A stretch of 34,285 nt of DNA from an uncultured Bacilli bacterium (GTDB lineage: Bacteria; Bacillota_I; Bacilli_A; RF39; UBA660). Made by a program: the position numbers and the translations under genes. The stretch covers positions 1 to 34,285 of the forward strand of contig CANROY010000006.1 in assembly GCA_947632355.1 (NCBI GenBank), written 5' to 3'. Below, one piece after another: positions 10,795-11,038 of the stretch. Under the pieces are notes generated by a model. The model worked only from the letters and a program-made list of their open reading frames with translations. It did not search any database and was not told the origin of the DNA. How positions within the stretch are numbered: the first letter of the stretch is position 1; each line of letters opens with the position of its first letter.

Positions 10795-10885
10795 TTGCCT
10801 TAAATCGACAAAAAATTTAAACTTTTTCTGTTAATATAGCAACTTTAAGAAGGAAGGTTATTATATGTTTTAATAAAGAAGAAAA

Positions 10886-10913
10886 TTCAAGGTTTCAAAT
10901 TGAAACCTTAGAA
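10886..10913. repeat. palindrome A1 (type A arms)
   Basis: TTCAAGGTTTCAAATTGAAACCTTaGAA; perfect 21-nt core at 10889-10909, outer arms match with one extra A. Confidence 0.85.
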
Positions 10914-10923
10914 AAACTGATAA

Positions 10924-10952
10924 TTTTTTAGCCGCAAATTGCGACCAAAAAA
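10924..10952. repeat. palindrome B1 (type B arms, degenerate left arm)
   Basis: TTTTTTAGCCGCAAATTGCGACCAAAAAA; dyad centred on 10938 with 2 mismatched pairs. Confidence 0.75.
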
Positions 10953-10973
10953 TAAGATAGAAGAGCGAAAAGA

Positions 10974-11000
10974 TTCAAGGTCACAAATTGTGACCTTGAA
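10974..11000. repeat. palindrome A2 (type A arms)
   Basis: TTCAAGGTCACAAATTGTGACCTTGAA; perfect 27-nt odd palindrome. Confidence 0.9.
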
Positions 11001-11011
11001 ATAACAATGAG

Positions 11012-11038
11012 TTTTTGGTCAAAAGTTTTGACCAAAAA
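11012..11038. repeat. palindrome B2 (type B arms)
   Basis: TTTTTGGTCAAAAGTTTTGACCAAAAA; perfect 27-nt odd palindrome. Confidence 0.9.

Follow-up and report, generated by a model that had tools for sequence, protein, structure and literature searches.

Palindromic DNA sites that follow the recognition helix of ORF6N-domain proteins lie within ORF6N genes and in arrays beside them

We propose that the palindromes clustered at an ORF6N-domain gene of an uncultured Bacilli bacterium, in the 34,285-nt stretch of DNA analysed here (the window), are sequence-specific sites of the ORF6N protein family. The gene would hold the site of its own protein within its coding sequence, the array beside it would hold foreign sites, and together they might mark DNA as self or non-self; taken as a whole, this is the interpretation towards which we lean by a small measure. 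Recognition of the palindromes by ORF6N proteins through a code in the recognition helix is very probable on the strength of the sequence comparisons. Statistics on those sequences establish the sites, the code, the cis-linkage of a gene to a site located within it, the foreign specificity of the flanking sites and the placement of arrays on both sides of the genes. The features of the locus are given in Table 1.

Table 1. Features of the ORF6N locus, with positions in the window
Feature	Start	End	Strand	Remarks
Conserved head of array	10800	10873	+	Promoter-like leader, ribosome-binding site and mini-ORF
Palindrome A1, core TTC	10886	10913		Class predicted to be read by helices TK[T/S]xNLAVKRN (paralog C10)
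Palindrome B1, core CGC	10925	10951		Class predicted to be read by TKRINEAVxRN (paralog C1, broken gene)
Palindrome A2, core CAC	10974	11000		Class predicted to be read by TK[V/A/I/Q]xNQAVKRN; matching gene absent from the genome's four known
Palindrome B2, core CAA	11012	11038		Class predicted to be read by TKExNQAVKNN; matching gene absent from the genome's four known
ORF6N-PLD-like gene, 297 aa, PADLOC PDC-S05	11060	11953	+	Pfam ORF6N E 6e-30; PDC-S05 E 7e-89; PLD-like fold matches
Recognition-helix codons, TKEINQAVKRN (residues 39-49)	11174	11206	+	Helix 39-48 in AlphaFold model; specificity positions 41, 44 and 48
In-gene palindrome, core TCC	11263	11289		Gene's own putative cognate-class site; encodes TSRFQFGTLN, a low-confidence loop in the AlphaFold model

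The gene downstream of the array encodes an ORF6N domain joined to a PLD-like domain, the latter with fold matches to NucT, Zucchini and TrmB. The Pfam PF10543 (ORF6N) profile matched the protein with 103.8 bits, against a curated cut-off of 27.8, and the PADLOC PDC-S05 model (PDLC04869) covered it end to end (residues 5-293, E 7.4e-89); the protein is thus a phage-defence candidate, with the candidate-level status of PDC-S05. A sequence search found no relative of solved structure. The model of the ORF6N domain matched Ski/Dachshund-type domains, and these only weakly (best E 0.2), and our conclusion on its fold is limited to the helix at residues 39-48. The surrounding genes (positions 4004-26074) encode a T2SSE-type ATPase, a T4SS pilin, a VirB4/TraG-like ATPase, a C39-like peptidase, a coupling protein and an Mbov_0396-like ICE membrane protein, and they look like a type IV secretion or conjugation module. 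In other Bacilli, tandem truncated copies of the ORF6N domain lie directly upstream of a full gene (L213:768-2385; G466:C64, G462:C8 and G445:C6), and each truncated copy in L213 has a different helix and its own palindrome.

The array had been described in a sequence-only reading as four dyads of alternating A and B type, and we found all four at the centres given there (10899, 10938, 10987 and 11025), together with the 88-bp repeat from A to A. As described, A1 (TTCAAGGTTTCAAATTGAAACCTTAGAA) has one extra base, located in its right arm, and B1 (TTTTTAGCCGCAAATTGCGACCAAAAA) has two mismatched pairs; A2 and B2 are both perfect palindromes. A1 looks like a hybrid palindrome: the odd sequence on its right, CCTTAGAA, belongs to a different arm type (TTCTAAGG...CCTTAGAA), in which it forms the right arm. 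The family has a fifth member in the window, absent from that reading, inside the downstream ORF6N gene. Seven short-loop palindromes passed our cut-off in the whole window, among them A1, A2, B2 and the in-gene palindrome, compared to 0.7 per shuffled window. The array is genuine, and chance falls far short of explaining it. When 434 kb of the same genome were scanned without bias, 17 of the 31 strong non-AT palindromes lay in its four ORF6N loci, and Markov shuffles of the 434 kb produced 2.7 strong palindromes in all. Searched genome-wide, the perfect type A pattern occurs at five places, all of them ORF6N loci, and the type B matches with a symmetric core are also confined to ORF6N loci.

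The four ORF6N loci of this 92%-complete genome are those of the window (C6) and of C13, C10 and C1. Each begins with a nearly invariant head of about 73 bp, carrying a ribosome-binding site and a mini-ORF (ATG TTT TAA/TAG); between this head and the start codon lies an array of 4 to 8 palindromes. All flanking sites in the four loci are upstream, except one site after the C1 gene. The mini-ORF of the window (10865-10873, ATG TTT TAA) has a good ribosome-binding site, and it ends in TAA or TAG in all four leaders; this leader was not found in the other loci that we fetched, outside the four of this genome. The ORF6N gene on contig 1 (C1, L005) is broken by an in-frame TAA stop inside its own in-gene palindrome. 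The sequence-only reading held that the two sides of a core change together, and the comparison of C6 with C13 bore this out. The counterpart of A2 of C6 (GGTCACAAATTGTGACC) is GGTCGCAAATTGCGACC and that of B2 (GGTCAAAAGTTTTGACC) is GGTCGAAATTTTCGACC, within near-identical flanks; in each case one core base pair differs, changed on both sides, the unpaired centre base aside. Neither of the two outcomes that would have refuted that reading, cores lacking compensatory change and palindromes absent from other ORF6N loci, was seen.

We gathered 133 unique ORF6N genes from relatives in the host's bacterial family; most genomes used were metagenome assemblies. A palindrome was present at the same codon position in 127 of the 133 genes, compared to 33 of 524 control windows of those genes. 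The in-gene palindromes comprise 119 distinct sequences, and nearly all have the centre in the same codon phase. Counted from the centre, positions 2-12 are paired in nearly all genes, though positions 4, 5, 8, 9, 10 and 12 vary. At position 4 all four base pairs are common (GC 39, CG 31, TA 29 and AT 21); symmetry is therefore kept while the sequence changes. The same site was found in Bacteroides, Parabacteroides, Segatella, Alistipes, Treponema, Sulfuricurvum, Legionella, Butyrivibrio and human-gut phage records. In one ORF6N class (Legionella, Segatella and some relatives), the palindrome is offset by one base relative to the reading frame, and the peptide that it encodes is unrelated. On this comparison, the conserved entity is the DNA and not the peptide.

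The recognition helix has the pattern T-K-a-x-N-b-x-V-x-c-N, in which three residues (a, b and c) predict three core bases per half-site. Because the AlphaFold model makes residues 39-48 a helix, a, b and c (residues 41, 44 and 48) are placed by the model on one helix face. The mutual information between core and helix exceeded that of shuffles, with 1.74 bits for b, 1.34 for a and 0.69 for c, the median column having 0.09. Base position 3 maps to c, positions 4 and 5 map to b and a, and position 8 maps weakly to the Lys before a. Columns after the palindrome have weaker mutual information at core positions 3-5 than the helix columns; positions 8-10 covary with the residues just after the palindrome, which may be a protein-level effect. 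With Glu at b the bases are CG in 54 of 55 genes, with Leu TT (28/29), with Lys TC (17/18) and with Arg GC (27/29), and with Gln they are CA, CC or TC, depending on a. At c, Arg goes with C and Asn with A on backgrounds where b is Glu, Gln or Arg. As a correlational code, the helix-to-core table is nearly deterministic, and its pairings of residue and base are unremarkable in chemical terms: Gln and Asn with A, Arg and Lys with G, Glu with C and Leu with T. Exceptions to the code are L197 (DINKAVKNN with GGA) and L249 (EVNQAVKNN with CGA). With relatives down-weighted, the effective sample size is about 75-82. The window gene's own class (TCC) is less certain than most because its helix type occurs in only a few of the genes tabulated (TCC in two, CAC in two). 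The outer arms, type A or type B, are unexplained by the helix code.

We trained the code table on 147 genes of the host's bacterial family, and when applied to 38 genes of other families and phyla it predicted the full triplet in 29, where 3.2 were expected. Several of the failures involve residues unseen in training, and in Haliovirga the gene does have the predicted CAC site, but the script picked a different palindrome. Relatedness does not account for the code, since among disjoint closest pairs of genes the bases change only where the residues do. Position 3 (k3) differs in 17 of the 20 pairs that differ at c and in none of the 61 in which c is equal (p 9e-15). Likewise, the outer bases (k5k4) differ in 42 of 57 pairs with a change at a or b and in 0 of 24 with both equal (p 1e-10). 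Of 13 genes in which the palindrome falls in a different reading frame, 12 obey the code, so selection acts on the DNA and not on peptide or RNA. We also considered whether loop and helix might covary at the protein level and so give rise to the code, and rejected this, as the frame-shifted genes obey the code while encoding other peptides.

The four cores of the window array (TTC, CGC, CAC and CAA) differ from the TCC of the in-gene site, so the array probably carries sites for other ORF6N specificities and not for that of its own gene. TTC is the class of paralog C10 and CGC that of paralog C1; no gene of the CAC or CAA class was present among the four found in the 92%-complete genome. Among the possible roles named in the sequence-only reading were autoregulatory operators for the ORF6N protein. 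The link to ORF6N stood, as the cores follow the code of ORF6N recognition helices, and the array as operators of its own gene was rejected on the core mismatch in the window and on chance-level matching elsewhere: flanking sites matched their own gene in 5 of 34 cases (4.3 expected) and 6 of 51 (6.9 expected). The latter count equally gives no statistical exclusion of self sites from the arrays. Across loci, at least one half of every upstream palindrome (51/51), and both halves of 44 of the 51, belong to the nine-triplet alphabet of the code.

Flanking sites occur on both sides of ORF6N genes, 35 upstream and 25 downstream, per about 78 kb each; one array is located in a convergent intergenic region, and most ORF6N genes are without a flanking array. 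The exact CGA/CGC core pattern has 39 occurrences in 45 genomes, of which 37 fall inside an ORF6N domain or at most 2 kb from one, and a reversed control pattern has none in the same genomes. The remaining two are on contig 30 of G224 and at a solitary site adjoining a DUF1016 gene, where the 3.1 kb fetched contained no ORF6N gene. No such sites were found at other promoter regions in the 434 kb of this genome or, for the CGA/CGC pattern, in the 45 genomes. In a flank array beside this DUF1016 gene (G070 contig 11, L266:1222-1566), five palindromes of another type (e.g. GTCGCACCAGTGGTGCGAC) accompany the one ORF6N site, which is of the CGA type.

Other gene families also have in-gene palindromes. 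In the DUF1016/YhcG genes of relatives, a co-varying palindrome within the coding sequence has its centre exactly 12 nt ahead of the LSWSHY codons; 15 of 25 genes have a palindrome score of at least 7, all at this offset (L269-L298 and L266:1594-2484). Of 23 RhuM genes (L299-L323), 20 contain a single co-varying palindrome, in the same place within each gene (e.g. AACTATTCGAAAATTTCGAATAGTT and CAGTATGTTCCAAAATGGAACATACTG). As a control, 9 of 276 ordinary open frames had an in-gene palindrome with a score of 10 or more. These palindromes point to a shared logic, in which cognate DNA elements, similar to those of BstA and aba, would be built into DNA-binding defence candidates.

We infer from these results that ORF6N proteins bind the sites directly as dimers and that the binding has a consequence. 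Each palindrome would be the site for a dimeric ORF6N-domain protein, whose recognition helix would set the core, b with a specifying the outer two bases and c the innermost one (C for Arg, A for Asn). The ORF6N gene would hold the site of its own helix in its coding sequence, just downstream of the helix codons, and the DNA-binding domain and its site would thus be transferred together. The four sites of the A-B-A-B array would each serve a different foreign ORF6N specificity, and two of these specificities are those of paralogs in the genome. The in-gene site might restrain or redirect the protein encoded on the same DNA, and through the flanking arrays the locus might carry marks that belong to other members of the family; protein bound to an array in a leader probably also represses transcription. 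By analogy with aba and the KilA-N-like defence protein BstA, the function could well be that of a self/non-self DNA mark, a suggestion that we make tentatively. To us a mark or antidote seems likelier than a simple promoter operator because in-gene sites occur in three families, the pair of domain and site survives domain exchange, and arrays lie on either side of the genes.

Regulation stays a strong rival, since the window array lies in the 5’ leader of the ORF6N gene, where an operator would also sit. The ORF6N proteins would then be repressors, the in-gene site an intragenic autoregulatory operator acting as a roadblock, and the leader sites would cause cross-repression within a mutual-repression network; we consider this possible rather than probable. 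The evidence for recognition through the helix code applies equally here. An autoregulatory operator would have its bases set by the recognition helix of its regulator, which is what we found for the in-gene dyad, and the same reading fits the four paralogous loci, in each of which the array separates the conserved head from the start codon. Other regulators bind sites near their own genes: a recognition code of the LacI family was derived from autoregulated operators, and there too a few recognition-helix residues predict the bases of a palindromic site linked to the regulator's own gene (PMC2978694). LacI sites were, however, sought in intergenic regions before the regulator's operon, whereas the ORF6N sites are within coding sequence and those flanking the genes belong to other specificities. 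The convergent intergenic array and the site at a DUF1016 gene that has no ORF6N neighbour within 3 kb also count against operators, and so may the frequency of downstream sites, which is nearly that of upstream sites. Two classes of the array have no gene among the genome's four, and other promoter regions are devoid of such sites.

We traced one case of gene conversion, between the tandem paralogs L153 and L025, in which the ORF6N core, with its helix and palindrome, moved as a unit; the tract spans about -195 to +44 around the palindrome. Such conversion is in keeping with the proposal that the palindromes are recombination substrates or cassettes that aid the swapping of ORF6N specificity domains, the arrays being donor relics, as are the hybrid palindromes with arms or cores of two types and the truncated ORF6N copies that, in other Bacilli, stand in tandem before a full gene. 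We consider the proposal improbable, as the traced tract runs on for about 45 nt past the palindrome and stops in conserved flanks, and as the proposal leaves unexplained both the helix-base code and the conserved sites far from any domain copy. The end of the examined tract also led us to reject the palindrome as a recombination breakpoint.

A role as RNA hairpins or DNA cruciform substrates, which the sequence-only reading had allowed for, would require symmetry alone. The strong symmetry without a single consensus and a minus-strand scan that labels the palindromes terminator-like are consistent with it. However, departures from symmetry in the in-gene palindromes are equally rare as G.T (21) and A.C (22), and the codons within the palindrome are chosen against the usage of the same genes. 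The Thr codon in the palindrome is ACC in 89 genes and the G.U-compatible ACT in 28, compared to 141 ACC and 649 ACT elsewhere; the Arg codon is AGG in 76 and AGA in 2, compared to 206 AGG and 1087 AGA elsewhere. By these mismatches and codon choices, what is maintained is exact DNA symmetry and not RNA pairing. With the code demanding specific bases, fixed by helix residues, and no match in an Rfam search, the hairpin or cruciform role is disfavoured and very improbable. A mobile palindromic repeat family (RPE- or REP-like), which many copies and the arms shared between loci might suggest, is scarcely credible and was rejected on the restriction of the sites to ORF6N loci (exact CGA/CGC sites against zero control matches), their fixed codon position across phyla, and the finding of no dispersed copies in unrelated genes in the 434 kb of this genome. 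Rickettsia palindromic elements also lie inside open reading frames; they are mobile and inserted in many unrelated genes, unlike the ORF6N palindrome, whose location is family-specific and whose sequence follows the helix of the protein.

The closest parallel to the self/non-self mark that we favour is found in BstA. This prophage defence protein has a KilA-N-like domain, and its own locus contains the cognate DNA element aba, which relieves self-targeting (PMC8585504). In both systems a defence protein, a candidate in the case of ORF6N, has an N-terminal DNA-binding region of the KilA-N type, and a short element that acts as DNA lies in its own locus, which for ORF6N is the in-gene palindrome. 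Each variant has its own cognate element, a match that for ORF6N is the statistical one of the helix-core code. The aba element is 63 bp long, lies over the start codon and has direct CCCGCC repeats; it is not described as a palindrome, and neither a recognition code nor foreign-element arrays are described for it (PMC8585504). The ORF6N site, in contrast, is a co-varying palindrome within the codons of the DNA-binding domain, and its part in immunity is putative. The window protein and the one RhuM gene tested match PADLOC PDC-S05 (the RhuM/ORF6N group), and the one YhcG-type DUF1016 gene tested matches PDC-S02; these PADLOC entries are protein models only, and our open-access search of the literature naming PDC-S05 found no DNA site given for it. 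Perfect inverted repeats of up to 284 bp occur in many coding genes of Nematomorpha mitochondria (PMC6649704), where protein and DNA symmetry are likewise both kept; the ORF6N palindrome differs in being one fixed short site per gene, tied to the DNA recognition of the encoded protein.

In the open-access literature searched, we found no DNA site for ORF6N proteins and no prior description of these coded sites. The little-studied ORF6N proteins are spread over several bacterial phyla and are also present in phages, and the domain now gains a readable, correlational DNA-recognition code of three helix residues for three bases. With the cognate site embedded in its own gene, public sequences become protein-site pairs. 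We speculate that ORF6N, RhuM and DUF1016/YhcG genes might each encode a palindrome read by their own recognition surface, a built-in antidote or self tag inseparable from the gene, and that the flanking arrays might be the tags by which resident relatives accept the locus. The code makes the role of the ORF6N candidate-defence genes directly testable.
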